From: a virus
Length of the DNA stretch: 22,787 bases
IMG/VR virus record: IMGVR_UViG_3300010883_024114
Coordinates: 1 to 22,787 of that record
Reading direction: 5' to 3' (one strand)
The notes under the pieces were generated by a model. That model saw only the letters and a list, made by a program, of their open reading frames with translations. It ran no database searches and had not been told where the DNA came from. This document shows, piece by piece, positions 2,662 to 19,842 of the stretch (position 1 is its first letter; the number at the start of each line of letters is the position of its first letter). The position numbers and the translations under genes are program-made.

Positions 2662-3855
2662 ATGCAAATTACAATTTCAGGAAAGAGACTTGGAACCTTA
2701 CAACATCTAATTCATGATGGAGAGATGTTCACGTGGTCAAATAGTATCCCTGAGGATTCTTGGAGATTCGGATTTGATAACTCTAAGAAAGACATAGAGA
2801 TTGTTGCTACAGCTTCTGGATATGATCTTTCAACATTTGAAAAATCTCCCCACAAGAAATCGATGGACATAATATTTGGTGATAGACCTGTTGATGTGCC
2901 GTGGATGCATGTAATGCCAAGGGGTATGTTTCATAAGCAGCTTCTAAGCCTTCTAGATCAGCTCTGGTGTGTCATTAGAGCTGAGCATGACCAGTACTAT
3001 ATGAATCAGTTTCTAAGCAACAGAGAGCTACTTATGGCCTTGCAGCAGCCACTAGTAGATGTAGCACACTTAAGAAATATTATCAAAGGTGCAGGACTAA
3101 AGAGGGGGGAGCTTTTAAAGTTTCTTCCTGAAAAAGGAGATGTTTCTCCAAGATCAGTCTATAGTCAGACAGGATCTATAACGGGAAGGCTAATAGTGTC
3201 CTCCGGCCCAAACATACTAACTCTCAAAAAAGAGCATAGAAGAATATTAAAATCAAGGTTTAGCGGGGGAAAGATAATTCAGATTGATATTTCATCATTA
3301 GAACCAAGGATAGCTCTCGCTGTTGCAGGAAAGGAATCACCTGATGACATTTATAATTTTATAGGAGACAATGTTTTGATGGGCGGACTAACAAGAGCTC
3401 AAGTAAAGATTGCAGTTTTAAGTTGTATGTACGGTGCATCTGAATGGTCACTATCTAAGCAGATTCCAAAAGAACTAGATGCCAAAAAGATATTGAAAGA
3501 AATAAAAAGATATCTAAAAATACCATCACTACAGAGTGATCTAGAAAAGCAAATAGAGAAATCAGGCTATATAAAGAATCTGTACGGAAGAAAGATAAAG
3601 TCACATGAATCAGTAGTTAATCATTTCTTGCAATCATCTGGCGTTGATGTCTCTTTTAATATTTTTTCACAGATTATGCATGACTTACAGAATAATAATA
3701 TAGACTTTGTTCCAATATACGTTATACACGATGCCCTTGTTTTGGATATTCATGGATCAGATTATAAAAATATTATAGAATTAACAAATATAGATTATAA
3801 AGTTGATAAGCTAGATGGTATATTTCCTGTAAAGATAGAAACAATAAAGGAATAA
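2662..3855 (+). CDS. polA: Family A DNA polymerase, polymerase domain only
   Basis: A 397-residue replicative polymerase of the Pol I family lacking the 5'-3' nuclease and any recognisable 3'-5' proofreading domain. Visible motifs in order: SQTGSITGRL (168-177); motif A IIQIDISSLEPR with catalytic D209 and E214; motif B R245-AQV-K249-IAV-L253-SCM-Y257-G; a GYIKNLYGRK element (302-311); N-x-F-L-Q-S-S-G (320-327); and motif C IHDALV with H356 and D357. Aligned to E. coli Pol I, L253 falls at position 762 (Phe in E. coli), and the residue after the motif C Asp is Ala rather than Glu. At under 400 residues it is short for the family, because the N-terminal half is reduced to about 160 divergent residues. 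The missing 5' nuclease is encoded separately at 10432. No clear Shine-Dalgarno precedes the ATG. Identity is secure from motifs A, B and C. Confidence 0.93.
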   Translation: MQITISGKRLGTLQHLIHDGEMFTWSNSIPEDSWRFGFDNSKKDIEIVATASGYDLSTFEKSPHKKSMDIIFGDRPVDVPWMHVMPRGMFHKQLLSLLDQLWCVIRAEHDQYYMNQFLSNRELLMALQQPLVDVAHLRNIIKGAGLKRGELLKFLPEKGDVSPRSVYSQTGSITGRLIVSSGPNILTLKKEHRRILKSRFSGGKIIQIDISSLEPRIALAVAGKESPDDIYNFIGDNVLMGGLTRAQVKIAVLSCMYGASEWSLSKQIPKELDAKKILKEIKRYLKIPSLQSDLEKQIEKSGYIKNLYGRKIKSHESVVNHFLQSSGVDVSFNIFSQIMHDLQNNNIDFVPIYVIHDALVLDIHGSDYKNIIELTNIDYKVDKLDGIFPVKIETIKE

Positions 3856-5811: not shown

Positions 5812-6318
5812 ATGAGACTTAAGCCCAGCACACTGAAAAGAATAATCCAAGAAGAGCTTCAAAGAGCTATTAACGAGCGAGTTAATCTTGACAGCTTAAA
5901 GATAAGTGATGATCAAAAGACCTTTTCTGTCATGGCAGATCCCACAAAAGAAGAAGAGGGAACTGAGTCTGAAGAGATTACTGGAAGAATTGAAAGATAT
6001 AAGGGTGTTCCCCTACCAAAGGCTGATCCTGAAAATCTACCTTTTGGATATGATAGCTTAAGGTCAGTATCCGGACAGCTGTCAGCACAGCTTAGACCAA
6101 TCTTTGATGAGATGTTCGGTGTAGTAGTGGGAGATGCAGCTGCTAGACAGGGTAAGGGTACAGTTCTAGCTGATGCATTATCAGCAATAGCAGAAAAATA
6201 TCCCGATGATGAAGATGTCCAGGCAGCAATTGGAACAATTCTAGGAATCAAGATGGGATTTGATGTACCTTATGGCTCTGGTGTCCCAGAAGTAGAAGAA
6301 GAAGAAGTCGGCTGGTAA
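5812..6318 (+). CDS. Acidic protein with N-terminal LK-x-II-x-EEL helix, probable virion or assembly protein
   Basis: A 168-residue acidic protein with AGGAG 6 bases before the ATG region (AGGAGATAATTAAATG). It opens with a basic amphipathic helix, LKPSTLKRIIQEELQRAI, a type of N-terminus I associate with many structural or packaged proteins of marine myophages. The rest is acidic, with E/D-rich stretches (46-54 and a Glu-rich C-terminus), and has no recognisable catalytic motif. It lies just before the larger gene at 6355, which carries similar short helices. Virion or assembly involvement is inferred from this only. Confidence 0.65.
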   Translation: MRLKPSTLKRIIQEELQRAINERVNLDSLKISDDQKTFSVMADPTKEEEGTESEEITGRIERYKGVPLPKADPENLPFGYDSLRSVSGQLSAQLRPIFDEMFGVVVGDAAARQGKGTVLADALSAIAEKYPDDEDVQAAIGTILGIKMGFDVPYGSGVPEVEEEEVGW

Positions 6319-6354: not shown

Positions 6355-7947
6355 ATGGCAACATTAAAATCTAAAGAATTCAAAAAGAAGTATGCAACTT
6401 CTATGGATAATATACCTGAAAAAGGTGTGTGGTCTGGAAGGGGAATTGGAATCCCTGTCGCCGGTGCCATAGGTGGCGGAGACGACTATAAGCAAAAGAT
6501 TGGTCGTGGAAAGCTACCAGACTTTAGAACCGGAAGACCTACTCAAGGAGCTGATTCAACATTTTCATCATATTTAGCAAGGGTTAATACGGGATATGAT
6601 GATGTTTATTTAGATATTCCTATGTTTCCTGAGCAAGAAGCCGAAGATGAAGATATTTATCATGGTGATGAGCCAGGCCATATTAGAAGCAGAAAGCTTC
6701 CTAAGGATTTTAAGATCAAGAGGCCAAAGATTCGGGAGAGCGGAAAGATGACGTTTGAAGACGATAATGTTGTTAGTGATTCAAGATATAGTCTAGTATC
6801 AGCTTTAGAGCACAAGGGTGAAATTAATGAGTTTGGAACAGTCGGAGCGCTTAGGCTCGCAGGAAAGGGTCTTGCTAGAGTAGTAGCAAAGGGAACAAAG
6901 GCAGCAGCTCTCTCTGTCCCCCTATTGGATACAGTTATTGGGATTCCAATAATGGCATATGCCCTCTATCAAGTGAAATCTGCAACAGACGGATTTGTTA
7001 GTGATCTAGATATACCGCAAAATTCACTATTTGAAGCTCTAACCGCAGAATCAGAGCAAGCTTGGCTAGAAATAATTGATAAAGCAGTTAATTCTCCTAT
7101 AGAGATAAGGGAAGATGTTGAAGGCCACTATAATGAAATGCTTGATGCAATCAAGGGAATGTTTATAACTCTCATTCAGACAGCTGATTCACTGGTAGTT
7201 GGAGCTGGAACTATCGCTATTGGTGCACCAATTCCGCTTCCAGAAGAGATTATAACTGTCCCGGCAGCAGAAATTATGACAAATCTGGCAACCGGAATAG
7301 GCGGATTCATCGCAGATATAGTTCCTGTTGAGAGGTTTATTTTCGATATGGCAGGAAGAGGAGCTGAAGTCGTTGAATCAGGACTTGATTCTTTGCAAAA
7401 AGTCAGTCCTGAAGATTTTTCTGCCATCCAAAAAATGGGAGAAGATGGAGGAGCCGGTGCAATGTCTGTACTGATGCACCCTGTTAGATCGTTTAGAAGA
7501 TTAGCACAACTGTATAGGGCACTAAATGATGTACCGGCAGTTGATCAGGTGATAGGAGCAGTTCCCGGCGCTGTATCACAGACGACAGCACTACCATCAG
7601 AATTACGCCAAAGTATCGCACAATTAGGAGGAGAACAAATGTCTTTAGAAGAGCTTAGAAGCTTCATAAGAGAGTCTGTATACCCAGACTATCCATCATA
7701 TCACCCACCCCAGCCAACAGGATTCGAGTATAGATCAGTTCCAGTAGTTGTTTCAAAGGAAGAAGCAGATTCTGATTTTGAAACACTTGATGACTATGAT
7801 GAATTTGCAGTAGCCTATAAGACAGATGGAGGAGTTGTTTCATATCAGGACAGAAACAAGCTTGTAAAGGAAGCAGCCTTAAGAAATATAATTCGAAGAA
7901 AAATAGAGTCTATTATTGATGAAAGTAAAAAAAAAAAGAATTATTAG
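6355..7947 (+). CDS. Large phage protein of unknown function, zero-frame product ending at a frameshift site
   Basis: The zero-frame product has 530 residues. Residues 1-160 are charged and Gly/Asp-rich. Residues 165-210 and 265-325 hold long stretches of small and hydrophobic residues (GLARVVAKGTKAAALSVPLL; LVVGAGTIAIGAPIP; LATGIGGFIADIV), which could be membrane-active or buried amphipathic helices. Two short motifs, LEELRSFIRESV (431-442) and LRNIIRRKIESIIDE (509-523), resemble the N-terminal helix of the upstream gene. The frame ends with four Lys, Asn, Tyr and TAG immediately after a run of eleven A. A continuous coding stretch in the -1 frame follows without its own start, so the full product is probably about 619 residues. 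No clear Shine-Dalgarno precedes the ATG. A virion or internal-core role is possible; the function is unknown. Confidence 0.75.
   Translation: MATLKSKEFKKKYATSMDNIPEKGVWSGRGIGIPVAGAIGGGDDYKQKIGRGKLPDFRTGRPTQGADSTFSSYLARVNTGYDDVYLDIPMFPEQEAEDEDIYHGDEPGHIRSRKLPKDFKIKRPKIRESGKMTFEDDNVVSDSRYSLVSALEHKGEINEFGTVGALRLAGKGLARVVAKGTKAAALSVPLLDTVIGIPIMAYALYQVKSATDGFVSDLDIPQNSLFEALTAESEQAWLEIIDKAVNSPIEIREDVEGHYNEMLDAIKGMFITLIQTADSLVVGAGTIAIGAPIPLPEEIITVPAAEIMTNLATGIGGFIADIVPVERFIFDMAGRGAEVVESGLDSLQKVSPEDFSAIQKMGEDGGAGAMSVLMHPVRSFRRLAQLYRALNDVPAVDQVIGAVPGAVSQTTALPSELRQSIAQLGGEQMSLEELRSFIRESVYPDYPSYHPPQPTGFEYRSVPVVVSKEEADSDFETLDDYDEFAVAYKTDGGVVSYQDRNKLVKEAALRNIIRRKIESIIDESKKKKNY
7927..7938 (+). promoter_or_regulatory. 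Putative -1 ribosomal frameshift (slippery) site, dnaX-type A AAA AAG
   Basis: Eleven A followed by G. In the zero frame of the 6355 gene the last codons are AAA AAG preceded by A (7932-7938), which is exactly the A AAA AAG heptamer used in E. coli dnaX. A -1 slip puts the ribosome at GAA 7938 in the open extension frame. The zero-frame TAG follows at 7945-7947, so termination and shifting would compete. I see no convincing stem-loop immediately downstream. Transcript slippage on the A-run or a homopolymer error are alternatives. Confidence 0.6.
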
Positions 7948-8213
7948 ACGATGAAGAAGAAGATGATCTCTCTAGAGAAGACGAACAAAATACAGTCTCA
8001 TCAGGAAATATTGCAGGATGGATTGGTCCACTTGGTGCTGGATCTGGGCAAAGCTATGAAAAGCTTGCTAAGAGAAATGCTAGCTTCTTCGGAGGAGGCA
8101 CTTTGGTTAATCCAGACTCTCCTGAAAGAATCGTTAAGAAAGCAACAGAGTTTGCAGATGGCACGGCTGGAAGATCAAAGAAGAGGAGGAAGGCCAGGAG
8201 AAAGAAAAACTAA
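7938..8213 (+). CDS. -1 frame extension of the 6355 gene (C-terminal ~91 residues)
   Basis: In the frame starting GAA TTA TTA GAC at 7938 the sequence is open to TAA at 8211-8213. It encodes an acidic linker (ELLDDEEEDDLSREDEQ), a Gly-rich middle (SGNIAGWIGPLGAGSGQSY), EKLAKRNASFFGGG, and a strongly basic tail (GRSKKRRKARRKKN). There is no ATG or GTG in this frame, and a TAA at 7926-7928 closes it just upstream, so it can only be reached by a shift within the A-run. The composition is protein-like and continues the charged C-terminus of the upstream frame. The zero-frame reading of the same bases gives a low-quality Lys/Leu/Gln-rich peptide. The basic tail could bind DNA or RNA. An indel in the A-run (11 versus 12 A) would also explain it. 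Confidence 0.7.
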   Translation, partial: ELLDDEEEDDLSREDEQNTVSSGNIAGWIGPLGAGSGQSYEKLAKRNASFFGGGTLVNPDSPERIVKKATEFADGTAGRSKKRRKARRKKN

Positions 8214-8256
8214 AAACTAAAAAACTAAAAAACTAAAAACTAAAAACTAAAAAACT
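8205..8256 (+). repeat. Seven tandem A5-6CT units
   Basis: Units of 7,7,8,8,7,7,8 bases (AAAAACT or AAAAAACT) run from 8205 to 8256, starting inside the last codons of the -1 extension. Two further degenerate copies lie at 8312-8323. Because the unit is not a multiple of three, the embedded TAA triplets stop all three forward frames. The transcribed RNA would be almost unstructured and A-rich, and it sits in the leader of the SSB gene. Confidence 0.9.
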
Positions 8257-8295
8257 AAATCTTGAACATTGCCCTATTTCGGGGTACCTTTAAAT

Positions 8296-8347: not shown

Positions 8348-9145
8348 ATGGCAGTTGATTTTGATGCAATTCGTAAGAAACTAGATCGGTTGAGTGGAAC
8401 TAACAAGAATCGATCTTCAACATGGCGACCCACCGAGGGAGAGGAACATACAGTTCGATTGATCTCTTTTCCTGAGAATGAGGGGCAGCCTTTCAAAGAA
8501 CTTTGGTTCTATTACAATATCGGAAAGGAAAGGGGACTTCTAACCCCCCATCAATTCGGTAATCCCGATCCAATTCAGGAGCTTATCAACAAGCTTCGTG
8601 AGGAAGGATCAAAGGAATCTTATGAGCTAGCTAAGAAGCTATATCCTAAGATGAGAACATATGCCCCAGTAATTGTTCGAGGTGAAGAGGACAAGGGTGT
8701 CCAGATCTGGGGATTTGGAAAGATGGTCTACCAGGCTCTTCTTGGTTTGATGCTTGATGAAGATTACGGTGATATTACTGATCCTCTTGAGGGGAGAGAT
8801 ATCAAGGTAGTTTGCTCTAAGCAACCTGGAAAGAAGTGGGCTATGACTGAGGTTCGGCCTCGAGGTAAGCAGTCTCTCCTGTCTGAAACACCAGCTCAGG
8901 TAAAAGAGTGGATGAGCAATATTCCAGATATGGATGATCTCTGGGAATGCAAGTCATATGATGAACTTTCAAAGATTGTAAATGACTGGCTGGGTGATGG
9001 AGAATCAGAATATGATTCAGGAGCATCAGCTTCAGGAGACTCATCCTCTGTGACTACCGCACCAAAGAAAGATGCAAATCCTAAAGGCACGGGATCTGGA
9101 TATTCAAATATTGATGATGCATTCGCAGATTTAATGTCAGATTAA
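8348..9145 (+). CDS. gp32-like single-stranded DNA-binding protein
   Basis: A 265-residue protein resembling the gp32-type SSB of T4-related marine phages. It starts MAVDFDAIRKKLDRLSG and has a core with many aromatic and basic residues (RLISFPENEGQPFKELWFYYNIGK, split here by eye into beta strands; VQIWGFGKMVYQALLGLM; DPLEGRDIKVV). A Ser/Gly/Ala linker rich in acidic residues follows, and then an acidic tip NIDDAFADLMSD, the sort of tail SSBs use to recruit replication partners. I see no Cys/His zinc module like that of T4 gp32. It should coat ssDNA during replication and recombination with the recombinase and helicase downstream. It stands alone between an unusual repeat leader and a strong terminator, as expected for a highly expressed, separately controlled gene. 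Confidence 0.8.
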   Translation: MAVDFDAIRKKLDRLSGTNKNRSSTWRPTEGEEHTVRLISFPENEGQPFKELWFYYNIGKERGLLTPHQFGNPDPIQELINKLREEGSKESYELAKKLYPKMRTYAPVIVRGEEDKGVQIWGFGKMVYQALLGLMLDEDYGDITDPLEGRDIKVVCSKQPGKKWAMTEVRPRGKQSLLSETPAQVKEWMSNIPDMDDLWECKSYDELSKIVNDWLGDGESEYDSGASASGDSSSVTTAPKKDANPKGTGSGYSNIDDAFADLMSD

Positions 9146-15356: not shown

Positions 15357-15743
15357 ATGGCTTATTCAGATAAGGTTATAGATCATTTTGAAAACCCTAG
15401 AAACATGGGAAGTCTAGATAAAAATGACCCTCGTGTAGGTACGGGAATCGTTGGAGCACCTGAGTGCGGAGACGTTATGAAACTACAACTAAAGATCGGT
15501 GATGATGGCACAATTGAAGAGGCTAAGTGGAAAACTTTTGGATGCGGCTCTGCTATTGCATCAAGCTCATTAGTTACTGAGTGGGTGAAGGGAAGAACTA
15601 TTGATGATGCTGAGGTTATTAAAAATTCTGAAATAGCGATGGAACTTTCACTACCGCCAGTTAAGATTCACTGTTCAGTATTAGCAGAAGATGCCATCAA
15701 GGCAGCAATTAAGGATTATAGGGATAAGAATGACTCGCGATGA
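15357..15743 (+). CDS. iscU: Iron-sulfur cluster scaffold IscU
   Basis: A 128-residue protein close to bacterial IscU over its full length. The three cluster-ligand cysteines are present: C37 in GAPECGDVMKL, C63 in KTFGCGSAIASSSL, and C106 in KIHCSVLAEDAIKAAI, with D39 and H105 also conserved. LPPVK (99-103) is the docking motif for the HscA chaperone, so it should be able to use host HscA/HscB. It assembles 2Fe-2S and 4Fe-4S clusters with sulfur from a cysteine desulfurase, which is not encoded here. It has a strong AAAGGAG ribosome binding site and a 40-base AT-rich spacer upstream. The next gene overlaps it by 14 bases. Such strong likeness to the cellular protein suggests acquisition from a host and retained function. 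Confidence 0.97.
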   Translation: MAYSDKVIDHFENPRNMGSLDKNDPRVGTGIVGAPECGDVMKLQLKIGDDGTIEEAKWKTFGCGSAIASSSLVTEWVKGRTIDDAEVIKNSEIAMELSLPPVKIHCSVLAEDAIKAAIKDYRDKNDSR

Positions 15744-16005
15744 TATACAGAAAATCATAGATGAAGATATAAACCCAGGTCTTGAGATGCATGGTGGGTA
15801 TATTGCAATTCATAATTTTGATGAAGAGAACAAATCTTTAAAGCTGACGATGGGGGGCGGATGTCATGGCTGTGCATCATCAAAAATAACTATGATGCTT
15901 GGAGTTGAAAGACATTTCAGAGAAGTATTTCCAGACATCTGTGAGATTACAGATGTTACAGATCATCTAGCTGGTGAAAATCCTTATTATCCACAGGGGC
16001 AATAG
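15730..16005 (+). CDS. nfuA: NfuA/NifU C-terminal domain-type Fe-S carrier
   Basis: A 91-residue protein starting at ATG 15730, inside the iscU 3' end (14-base overlap). It carries HGGYIAI, then GGGCHGCASSKITMMLGVERHFREVFPDI, the NifU-C fold with the CxxC pair that bridges a 4Fe-4S cluster between two subunits. Only the Nfu domain is present; the degenerate A-type domain of E. coli NfuA is missing. It would take clusters from IscU and hand them to client enzymes, aconitase being a known client type for Nfu proteins. A farther upstream in-frame start at 15691 would add 13 residues unlike the family, so I prefer 15730. The iscA-type gene begins directly after its stop. Confidence 0.9.
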   Translation: MTRDDIQKIIDEDINPGLEMHGGYIAIHNFDEENKSLKLTMGGGCHGCASSKITMMLGVERHFREVFPDICEITDVTDHLAGENPYYPQGQ

Positions 16006-16338
16006 ATGGCAATAACAATGACAGAGTTTGCAACAGACAGAATTTCAGCTATGCTTGATAGAAGCCAGATGGATCGTGAAGCTGCATATCTTAGAGTCGG
16101 GTTACGGTCAGGCGGCTGCTCAGGATATTCTTATATTTTTGAGTTCACAGATAAGCGTGAAGAACACGACAAGATTTTTGAGTTCGGATCAGTTAAAATT
16201 TGTGTAGATAAAAAATCTTATTTATTCTTGAACGGCATGGAGATAGACTATGAAGAATCACCATTCAAGTCTGGAATTAAGATAAATAATCCAATGACTT
16301 CTAGGACTTGTGGTTGTGGCGAGTCAGTCGCCTTCTGA
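16006..16338 (+). CDS. iscA: A-type Fe-S carrier (IscA/ErpA/SufA family)
   Basis: A 110-residue A-type carrier with the three invariant cysteines: C38 in RSGGCSGYSY and C102/C104 in the C-terminal TCGCGESVAF. The 63-residue gap and the CGCG-x-S ending are those of the family. It receives clusters or iron and passes them to apo-enzymes. Which subfamily (IscA, SufA or ErpA) cannot be resolved by eye; the symbol is generic. ATG follows the nfu stop with no gap, and the TGA is the start of a GAGG used by the next gene, so the four genes from 15357 are translationally linked. Confidence 0.92.
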   Translation: MAITMTEFATDRISAMLDRSQMDREAAYLRVGLRSGGCSGYSYIFEFTDKREEHDKIFEFGSVKICVDKKSYLFLNGMEIDYEESPFKSGIKINNPMTSRTCGCGESVAF

Positions 16339-16340
16339 GG
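16337..16340 (+). promoter_or_regulatory. Ribosome binding site deciding the clpP-like start
   Basis: GAGG overlaps the iscA stop codon and lies 5 bases before GTG 16346. The alternative in-frame GTG at 16310 lies within iscA. Confidence 0.65.
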
Positions 16341-16345
16341 TATAC

Positions 16346-16948
16346 GTGAAGTGGACTACAAAAATTTCCGGACTTTTAAAGGATGTGGAGCTAAGAAAGA
16401 ATCCAGTTCTCATTAGAGTTAATAAGTTTGATGAAAAATCAACAAAAGAATTTCAGGATCAGGTTGCACAAGCACACAATACTGGGCAGAAGATAATACC
16501 AGTAGTTATAGACTCATACGGAGGCCAAGTCTATAGTCTAATGGCAATGATAAGCGCAATAAAGAATTCAGAGATTCCAGTTGCAACAATTGTAGAGGGA
16601 AAGGCGATGTCTTGCGGAGCAATTCTATTTAGCTTTGGTGAAGAAGGATACAGGTTCATGGATCCAAATGCAACTGTTATGATTCATGATGTCTCTTCTA
16701 TGGAAAGAGGAAAGGTCGAAGAAATAAAGGCATCTGCTGAAGAGACAGATCGTCTTAATAAGACAGTTTATGAAATGATGGCATTAAATTGCGGCAAAAG
16801 AAAGGATCATTTTTTAAAAATAGTCCATAAGAAGGGACATGCAGACTGGTATCTTGACGCCGAAGAGGCCAAGAAGCATAATTTAGCAAATCAGATAAGG
16901 GTTCCATCCCTTAGAATAAACATTAATGTCGATATAGAATTCGATTAA
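16346..16948 (+). CDS. clpP: ClpP-like serine protease
   Basis: A 200-residue crotonase-fold serine protease from GTG 16346. The oxyanion region is DSYGGQVYS (56-64), the nucleophile is S89 in GKAMSCGAI, the catalytic His is H114 in PNATVMIHDVSS, and the likely Asp is D167 in HADWYLDAEEA. The Ser is followed by Cys rather than the usual Met. The length matches mature ClpP. No ClpX/ClpA-like ATPase is nearby, so it would have to use a host unfoldase, act alone or form mixed rings. Phages use ClpP-fold enzymes as prohead proteases. Its place between Fe-S and carbon genes, far from capsid genes, makes a role in infected-cell proteolysis at least as likely. Confidence 0.87.
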   Translation: MKWTTKISGLLKDVELRKNPVLIRVNKFDEKSTKEFQDQVAQAHNTGQKIIPVVIDSYGGQVYSLMAMISAIKNSEIPVATIVEGKAMSCGAILFSFGEEGYRFMDPNATVMIHDVSSMERGKVEEIKASAEETDRLNKTVYEMMALNCGKRKDHFLKIVHKKGHADWYLDAEEAKKHNLANQIRVPSLRININVDIEFD

Positions 16949-16961
16949 CCGGAGATAGACT

Positions 16962-18536
16962 ATGATTTTTTCAGACCCGAACATTAGAATAGACAGCAAA
17001 GATACATACCCAGATATTCTTGATATAGGTGCTATGAATTTTCTTGCTGAGCTAACAAGAAAATTTAGACCAGAGCTAATAAGTCTTTTAGAGCGGAGAG
17101 AAGAGCGTCAAAACTTTTATGATGAGGGATACTCTCCAGATTTTCTATCTGAAAATGAAGACATTAGGTCTGATGATTGGAGGGTTGCAGATATACCAGA
17201 TGATCTTAAAGATAGAAGGGTAGAGATTACTGGTCCTGTTGATAGAAAGATGATCATTAATGCAATGAACTCTGGCGCAAATGTATTCATGGCAGACTTT
17301 GAAGACTCTCTCTCCCCAACATGGAGTAATGTTGTAGTTGGTCAGAGAAATCTAAAGGATGCTGTCGTAAAAAAAATTACATACGAGCATCCCACAAAAG
17401 GAACTTATAAGCTTAATAATAAAACAGCAGTCTTATTTGTAAGGCCAAGGGGACTTCATCTTAATGAAGCACATTTTTTAATTGATGATAAGCCAATACC
17501 TGCATCACTTTTTGATTTTGGATTATTCTTCTTCCACAATGTTCATGAACAAATATCCCGAGAAACAGGATCATATTTTTATCTTCCAAAAATCGAACAT
17601 CACTTAGAAGCAAGATGGTGGAATGATGTATTTAATTGGGCACAAGACAAGCTAGAAGTACCAAGGGGAACGGTTAGGGCAACAGTCTTAATAGAGACTC
17701 TTCCTGCAGCCTTCCAGATGGATGATATTTTATGGGAGCTTCAGGATCACTCTGCAGGCTTAAACTGCGGGCGGTGGGATTATATCTTTAGCTACATTAA
17801 GACATTTAGAAATCATGAAAATAAAGTCTTGCCAGACAGATCCTTAGTAACAATGGACAGGAAATTTATGAGATCATATAGTGATCTATTGATCAAAACT
17901 TGTCATAAGAGAGGTATTCATGCTATGGGCGGAATGGCTGCACAAATACCAATTAAGGGAGATCTTGCTGCAAATAATATTGCAATGGATGCAGTTAAAT
18001 CTGACAAATTTCGCGAAGTAACATCTGGACATGATGGAACCTGGGTAGCTCATCCCGGACTTGTACCTATCGCAAGAGAAGTATTTGATGAGTATATGAA
18101 AGATTCAAATCAGATTAGTAAACAAATTGATAGAGAAATCAAATCAATAGATCTGCTAAGGTGTCCCGATGGACTTATTACTTTTGATGGCCTGAGAAAG
18201 AATATAAATATAGGAATACTGTATATTGAAAATTGGCTACGAGGAAATGGATGTGTTCCTCTTTATAATCTTATGGAAGATGCAGCAACTGCTGAGATAT
18301 CCAGAACACAAGTGTGGCAGTGGATAAGACATCAAAAATTTGATACGAATGTATTTGATAGAATTTTAGATGAAGAATTGCTAAAGATAAGGATAGACGT
18401 AGGAGAAGATCTATTTCTGTCTGGTCGATATCATCAGGCTGCACAGCTCTTCGAAGGACTTTCAACTTCTAGTAATTTAACAAATTTCTTAACAGTTCCA
18501 GCATATCATATGCTGGTTGGAGATATTGATGATTGA
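16962..18536 (+). CDS. aceB: Malate synthase A
   Basis: A full-length, 524-residue malate synthase (E. coli AceB is 533): glyoxylate + acetyl-CoA + water gives malate + CoA, the second step of the glyoxylate bypass. Conserved blocks: [32 protein letters not shown] (108-121), RPRGLHL with catalytic R163, [15 protein letters not shown] with E245, [20 protein letters not shown] with D273, [31 protein letters not shown], and [13 protein letters not shown] with the probable catalytic base D440. No substitution in these residues is apparent, so it should be active. It is of type A, not the longer type G with its large insertion. It has a CGGAG ribosome binding site and overlaps isocitrate lyase by 8 bases at its 3' end. 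Confidence 0.97.
18519..18522 (+). promoter_or_regulatory. Ribosome binding site deciding the aceA start
   Basis: GGAG inside the 3' end of aceB lies 6 bases before ATG 18529. An in-frame TTG at 18517 overlaps it and is rejected. Confidence 0.75.
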
Positions 18537-19842
18537 TGATAATGGATATTGCATTCTTTGTGCTAAGCATGAGAATCAGTGCAGGTGCGATGAGGAAGAA
18601 CAGAAGCCTAGCGATAGGTGGGAGGGAATTAAGAGAGACTGGACTGCCATGGATATTAATGCGCTTAGGGGAAGAGTTAAAATAGAATATTCTCTTGCAG
18701 AACTAGGATCAAGAAAACTATGGGATCTTCTCAAACAAGAAGAGCCGGTTGCTGCCCTTGGCGCGCTAACTGGAAATCAAGCAGTTCAGCAAGTAAGGGC
18801 TGGGCTTAATGGGATATATGTTAGCGGATGGCAAGTTGCAGCTGATGCAAATCTTTCTGGACAGACATATCCAGACCAGAGCTTATATCCAGCAAACAGT
18901 GTTCCTGCGCTAGTAAAGAGAATTAATCAGTCCCTACATAGAGCAGATCAAATTGAAAGCTCAGAGGGAATTCAGACAAGAGACTGGATGGTTCCAGTTA
19001 TAGCAGATGCTGAAGCCGGCTTCGGCGGACCATTAAACGCATATGAGATGATGAAAGCAATGATAGAGTCAGGAGCAGCAGGAGTCCACTTTGAAGATCA
19101 GCTTTCATCTGAGAAAAAGTGTGGACATCTTGGAGGAAAAGTTTTATTACCAACATCACAGTTTATTAGAACACTAAAGGCAGCCAGGCTTGCAGCAGAC
19201 GTCATGGACGTTCCAGCAGTTTTAATTGCTAGAACAGATGCCAATAGCGCAAAACTAATAACATCTGATATAGATCCGAGCGATCATGAATTTTTAACTG
19301 GTGATAGAACAACTGAGGGATTTTATAGAATTACTGGGGGAATTGATTGCGCTATTGCAAGAGGTCTGGCATATGCTCCTTATGCAGATATGTTATGGTG
19401 TGAAACTTCAACTCCTGATCTAGGAGAGGCTCAAAAATTCGCTGATGCTATTCATGAAAAGTTTCCAGGCAAATTGCTTGCATATAATTGCTCGCCCTCA
19501 TTCAACTGGAGGAAGCATCTAGATGAAGTAACAATTTCAACATTCAGGCAGAAACTCAATAAAATGGGTTATAAGTTTCAGTTTGTAACTCTTGCAGGAT
19601 TTCATTCGCTTAATTATTCAATGTTTGAGCTATCTAGAAAATATAAAGACTATGCTATGTCTGCTTATGTTGAGCTACAAGATGAAGAATTTATGTCTGA
19701 ACATTTCGGGTACACTGCTACAAAGCACCAAAGAGAAGTCGGAACAGGATACTTTGATCATGTAAAAGAAGTTATCATGGGTGATGATGTATCATCGACT
19801 CTTGCGCTTAAGGGATCTACAGAGTCAGATCAGTTTGACTAG
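18529..19842 (+). CDS. aceA: Isocitrate lyase
   Basis: A full-length, 437-residue isocitrate lyase (E. coli AceA is 434): isocitrate gives glyoxylate + succinate. The family signature KKCGHL is at 196-201 with catalytic C198. Other conserved blocks are [112 protein letters not shown] and REVGTGYFD. All substrate- and Mg-binding segments I know of are intact. The first ~25 residues are unlike E. coli AceA and hold C8-x2-C11-x6-C18-x-C20, a possible metal-binding knuckle. It starts within the aceB stop region (ATGATTGA overlap), so the two enzymes are translationally coupled. No AceK kinase or IclR regulator is nearby. Confidence 0.97.

Follow-up and report, generated by a model that had tools for sequence, protein, structure and literature searches.

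In tailed phages, ribosomes slip on a short slippery sequence next to the tape measure gene and so produce the tail assembly chaperone gpG-GT. Among the genes with long homopolymer tracts, tssM1 of Citrobacter rodentium carries an A11 tract at which about 20% frameshift yields the long form, both forms and their ratio being of importance, and in tssM3 of Yersinia the polarity is reversed relative to tssM1 (PMC4256274). In the dnaX gene of Thermus thermophilus, a run of 9 A is soon followed by stops in the frames other than the templated one (PMC1088944, PMC5009743), and slippage on 9A or 9T is described for the transposase genes of IS elements (PMC1088944). As for phages, a passage on the methyltransferase gene CPt10_0091 of Campylobacter phage CPt10 describes a poly-A frame break and suggests slippage there (PMC2853527). 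Herein we describe a gene of uncultured phages in which, judging from comparison of sequences, a run of A residues probably acts as a switch for transcriptional slippage.

Two frames at one junction

The window, by which we mean the whole stretch of DNA analysed (22,787 nt, positions 1 to 22,787 of IMG/VR record IMGVR_UViG_3300010883_024114), contains the junction whose features are collected in Table 1. Across it frame 0 reads ...GAA AGT AAA AAA AAA AAG AAT TAT TAG, the base after the run being G (7938). The -1 frame is closed by TAA at 7926-7928 and then stays open as far as the TAA at 8211-8213; its translation starts with KKKELLDDEEEDDLSREDEQNTVSSGNIAGWIGPLG... and ends with GRSKKRRKARRKKN, and a shift into it would give a long product of 619 aa. 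The first-pass annotation had described this geometry correctly: there are 11 A, frame 0 stops at 7945-7947, and the -1 frame, closed ahead of the run, stays open for 91 codons past it. Re-reading of the sequence likewise found neither ATG nor GTG in the -1 segment, and the two products predicted in that annotation, of about 530 and 619 aa, agree with the lengths of the ORFs.

Table 1. Positions in the window of the features at the junction and of the downstream neighbour gene
Feature	Position	Strand	Remark
Body ORF, frame 0, short product of 530 aa	6355..7947	+	start ATG 6355
A11 slippery run (candidate switch)	7927..7937	+	at least 9 A (one A8) at 31 junction sequences
Heptamer A AAA AAG, frame 0	7932..7938	+	in the window; not conserved by relatives
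TAG stop of the short product	7945..7947	+	2 codons past the run
-1 frame tail, 91 aa, stop TAA 8211-8213	7938..8213	+	purifying selection in the -1 frame
Acidic linker ELLDDEEEDDLSREDE	7938..7985	+	tail translation
Conserved tail core GNIAGWIGPLGAGSGQSYEKLAKRNASFFGGGTLVNP	8004..8114	+	in-frame homologues in outgroups
Basic C-terminus RSKKRRKARRKKN	8172..8210	+	lysines encoded without long A-runs
gp32-type ssDNA-binding protein, downstream neighbour	8348..9145	+	handle for sampling relatives

The N-terminus of the body is conserved (SGRGIGIP..GGDDYKQKIGRGK), the middle is variable and helical, and the C-terminus is an LRxxIRxx helix with ESKKKKNY as the last residues. An AF2 model of the body has a pLDDT of 48 and is confident only at the helices of residues ~200-274 and 360-390. 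No relatives of the body, the tail or the outgroup tails were found among the INPHARED phages, nor were relatives found in GTDB genomes, and body and tail gave no match to PHROG and Pfam. The glycine-rich conserved N-terminus, the LRxxIR helices, the acidic linker and the basic end suggest an assembly or virion role and no more; that the gene encodes a putative virion or assembly protein, of which a minority of copies would be extended, is our tentative guess. The preceding ORF (window 5812-6318) opens with an LKRIIQEEL helix similar to the LRxxIRxx motifs of the body gene, and a sorting or assembly signal common to both is conceivable. Directly past the tail stop, tandem AACTAAAA-like repeats occupy window positions 8208-8260, and close relatives have them too.

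A gp23-type capsid gene is present in 7 of the 8 long records, and from the IMG sample numbers we take the source to be marine. Elsewhere in the window, an ORF of 397 aa at 2662-3855 resembles family A DNA polymerases (Pfam DNA_pol_A, E 3e-14) and, since it is equally short in L013 and L026, could represent a single portion of a split polymerase; three small ORFs at 15357-16948 are by eye IscU/NifU-, Nfu- and IscA-like (Fe-S cluster assembly), followed by a ClpP-like ORF. A malate synthase gene (16962-18536, Pfam E 4e-112) adjoins one for isocitrate lyase (18517-19842, E 8e-103), a glyoxylate-shunt pair on a phage contig; a study of how viruses reprogram metabolism in the dark ocean mentions both enzymes (PMC4053976).

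Conservation of the run, the frame break and the tail

IMG/VR was searched with the body and the tail separately, and by tblastn the tail matched nine first-round contigs; wherever these contain the junction, the tail is out of frame with the body and follows a run of 9 or 10 A (the L011 contig ends at the run, so the junction is absent there). The set was extended by profile searches, and moreover 80 contigs were gathered via the downstream gp32 gene and the gene upstream was then inspected, which avoids selection by the feature itself. Collapsing the run and grouping identical flanks gave 34 groups, a few of them unrelated runs; the comparison set consists of 31 junction sequences, all of them on metagenomic contigs of related uncultured viruses. 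Since some of these form close sets (L077/L079/L080, L103/L104 and L112/L115), the truly distinct lineages number about 27, fewer than 31.

The run comprises 9-12 A in 30 of the 31 junction sequences and 8 in the remaining one (L107). The tail is offset by -1 in 23 of them and by +1 in two (L062 and L117, single contigs each, which could contain an assembly error), while in six the tail is in frame with the run still present (L055, L077, L079, L080, L110 and L131). A comparison of homologues had been proposed in the first-pass annotation as a check; it shows the shift to be conserved, in the 23 and the two sequences just named, and dispels the concern raised there that the downstream segment might be absent from homologues, as the tail is present in relatives and under purifying selection. 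The codon phase of the run varies (0, 1, 2), the next base is G, T or C, and the heptamer differs by lineage (A AAA AAG, A AAA AAA or A AAA AAC). Past the run a single frame is open in all 31 sequences, for 33-357 codons, and both other frames are closed within 8 codons in 23 of 27, against a background of 28.5% when codon positions are drawn at random from the other genes of these loci (p 1.4e-9). As one frame reaches the tail and the other two stop early, any slippage would therefore lead to either the long or the short product.

Runs of this length are rare in the same genomes. In the other plus-strand ORFs of these loci (172 kb) a run of 6 A or more occurs 165 times, yet outside this gene one of 9 or more occurs only twice, and 9 A are used in 0 of 40 other KKK tracts, a control that leaves out one listed match, L116's own candidate switch run. 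Three of the long records, of 115, 75 and 64 kb, contain no run of 9 A on either strand apart from the one at the junction; the remaining long records have a few more A9 runs, intergenic or in frame, and none of those inspected shows a frame break that is clearly conserved.

The tail frame is under purifying selection. Compared with the window its dN/dS is 0.10-0.27, and for the pair L045-L052 elsewhere in the family it is 0.40; for one ungapped stretch read in all three frames, the -1 frame gives 0.19-0.23, frame 0 gives 0.8-1.0 and the third frame gives >3.

Probable slippage during RNA synthesis and its rivals

In the mechanism we propose, RNA polymerase, presumably that of the host, would slip on the tract of 9-12 A, so that A's would be gained or lost in the mRNAs. 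For the window, the unslipped mRNA (11 A) would give the short protein of 530 aa, and an mRNA with one A extra (or two fewer) would give the protein of about 619 aa with the acidic linker, the GWIGPLG core and the basic tail, the remaining frame closing within 5 codons. Selection would retain a mixture of short and long products, and because the genomic frame would set only which of them is major, relatives could combine -1, +1 and 0 offsets with the same type of run. What the junctions have in common is a homopolymer of at least about 9, far above background and independent of phase and heptamer. Transcriptional slippage fits better than a ribosomal shift since at least 9 A are kept in any phase, the heptamer is free, +1 lineages occur, and SD or stem-loop stimulators are lacking; the bacterial tssM genes moreover provide experimental precedents for either polarity (PMC4256274). 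Nascent-RNA hairpins, which stimulate slippage in some genes, were not evident at the junctions. A search for a T7-type RNA polymerase in the 8 long records gave no match, the control likewise matching nowhere. Ribosomal slippage may take place alongside transcriptional slippage on the same run; where the offset is -1 (23 sequences), ribosomes shifting by -1 on the A-run would yield identical products, and the six in-frame sequences would also gain a short form from such a shift.

The mechanism favoured in the first-pass annotation was a programmed -1 ribosomal frameshift of the dnaX type at A AAA AAG, considered here for A AAA AAA as well, and the frame change with its two C-terminal variants is borne out as real and conserved in the family. 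The window carries an in-phase, exact heptamer followed 2 codons later by the stop, 23 of the 31 junctions require -1, and E. coli dnaX is a familiar example of tRNA-Lys slipping on A AAA AAG (PMC5009743). However, a ribosomal shift needs just 6-7 A, yet the run is never shorter than 8 and nearly always at least 9; the variable heptamer and the free codon phase are left unexplained, +1 and in-frame members exist, and an X XXY YYZ heptamer conserved together with a -1 offset is not found in the family. No upstream SD or downstream hairpin common to the junctions was found; SD-like motifs are sporadic and RNA structure is close to average (mean z -0.26 on the 3' side and -0.05 on the 5' side), and both were rejected as common stimulators. 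We therefore regard a ribosomal origin of the shift as rather unlikely. Far less probable still is that internal initiation or reinitiation makes the tail as a protein of its own. A start at ATG 7951 would be one example; there the sequence TAG ACG ATG places a start close behind the stop, and frame 0 of the window reopens to 8220 as an ORF of 89 aa, which the first-pass annotation does not mention. This ORF is in frame 0 and is not the conserved tail; it shows the dN/dS of 0.8-1.0 given above and is closed early in most lineages, and reinitiation at ATG 7951 was rejected for an ORF without selection. Internal initiation is not a general route either, because in 18 of the 24 entries checked the tail frame has no ATG, GTG or TTG ahead of its core; moreover in L026, the first strand of a hydrolase domain begins right at the run.

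Changes of run length in the DNA itself would be another way to two products. Homopolymers are hypermutable, and the occurrence of -1, +1 and 0 offsets among lineages would suit phase variation, in which a contingency A-tract toggles the tail within a population. Nevertheless, run length is identical in 11 lineages or groups, each represented by 2-5 independent contigs, without any within-group difference such as a phase-variable locus has among near-identical genomes; close relatives differ in run length by substitution with total spacing kept, and not by indel (window/L036, L077/L079, L112/L115), and the -1 state is in strong excess. The constant lengths within groups, the substitutions with spacing kept, and the variable phase and offset disfavour phase variation, which we deem improbable, and exclude a sequencing error for the family. 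In the latter reading, homopolymers being error-prone, the gene would truly be continuous, as it is in the outgroup, and the first-pass annotation had accordingly named reads with 12 A as what would undo its claim. One contig shared by L021 and L076 (3300025122_000108) does have an indel that shortens the tail relative to L075, an assembly error or a real change. But the break recurs across many lineages and in several metagenomes, the run lengths being specific to the lineage, and a relocated run in L103/L104/L116 likewise breaks the frame, so that a mere error of sequencing or assembly is scarcely credible. That relatives retain such a run although the frame changes in different directions marks the feature as genuine and old.

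History of the gene and its described counterparts

In the outgroup contigs, the core VANIAGVSTPLGTGPTYP...KKKK is in frame and there is no run; mostly it lies within a short protein of about 80-105 aa, which also starts with an LRxxIRxxL helix. Seven further lineages encode the long gene in frame without the run, so that the short form is dispensable in some. The gp32 tree unites the short run-less genes in a single supported group, and in the remainder the -1, +1, 0 and run-less long states are scattered. The supported clade L103/L104/L116 has lost the run at the usual site, where the longest A-run is 4; instead the frame breaks by -1 at an A9 some 100 nt downstream of that site, past the G..P motif, and this slippery break at a second site is in our view the strongest sign of selection for two products. 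Between the run and the family tail, L025/L026 and their relatives carry a GDSL/SGNH hydrolase domain (Pfam PF13472, E 9e-16) whose first strand begins at the putative slip site; in L026 (6590-7663) the insertion fits exactly into this interval and no start codon precedes it.

Across this clade of uncultured gp23-type marine phages, it is for us an even question whether a slippage switch indifferent to frame has been kept, the mixture being selected via at least 9 A. With the same balance of expectation, the offset of the genomic frame (-1, +1, 0) would be free to vary around it, as would the place of the run and even the domain that follows (the GDSL hydrolase insertion). If this is true, the gene would be, as far as we found, the first of a tailed phage to show transcriptional slippage throughout a family, and phages would tune a product ratio via polymerase slippage at a homopolymer and not solely by ribosomal recoding. 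The family would then be a natural experiment in which the polarity, the site and the partner domain of a switch evolve. There is a warning for viral metagenomics as well, where gene callers and the "correction" of homopolymers will truncate or mis-join such genes.

Compared with known systems, the gene resembles the gpG-GT chaperone as a phage gene with a minority product, here a proposed one, extended at the C-terminus; unlike the latter it is located beside gp32 and an HD-domain gene, has a long A-run and no homology, with no PHROG or Pfam match. CPt10_0091 is treated in the passage cited above as a single gene with a suggestion only, and family-wide conservation is not reported in that passage, while the family here is conserved. 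As in the IS transposases, a conserved run with an extension in the shifted frame is the comparative-genomic signature, although those are transposase fusions of mobile elements and the proteins are unrelated. With Thermus dnaX the gene shares a run of at least 9 A, other frames soon stopped, and a slip that would lead to the other length; in Thermus the templated frame is the long one, whereas here it is mostly the short one, and six of the 31 junction sequences are as in Thermus. Like tssM1 and tssM3, it has an A11 tract, a short default, a long form that would come from slippage, and a reverse polarity in a homologue; but tssM encodes a membrane protein of bacterial type VI secretion and is known from two genes, whereas the present case concerns an uncultured phage family with many lineages and three offsets.
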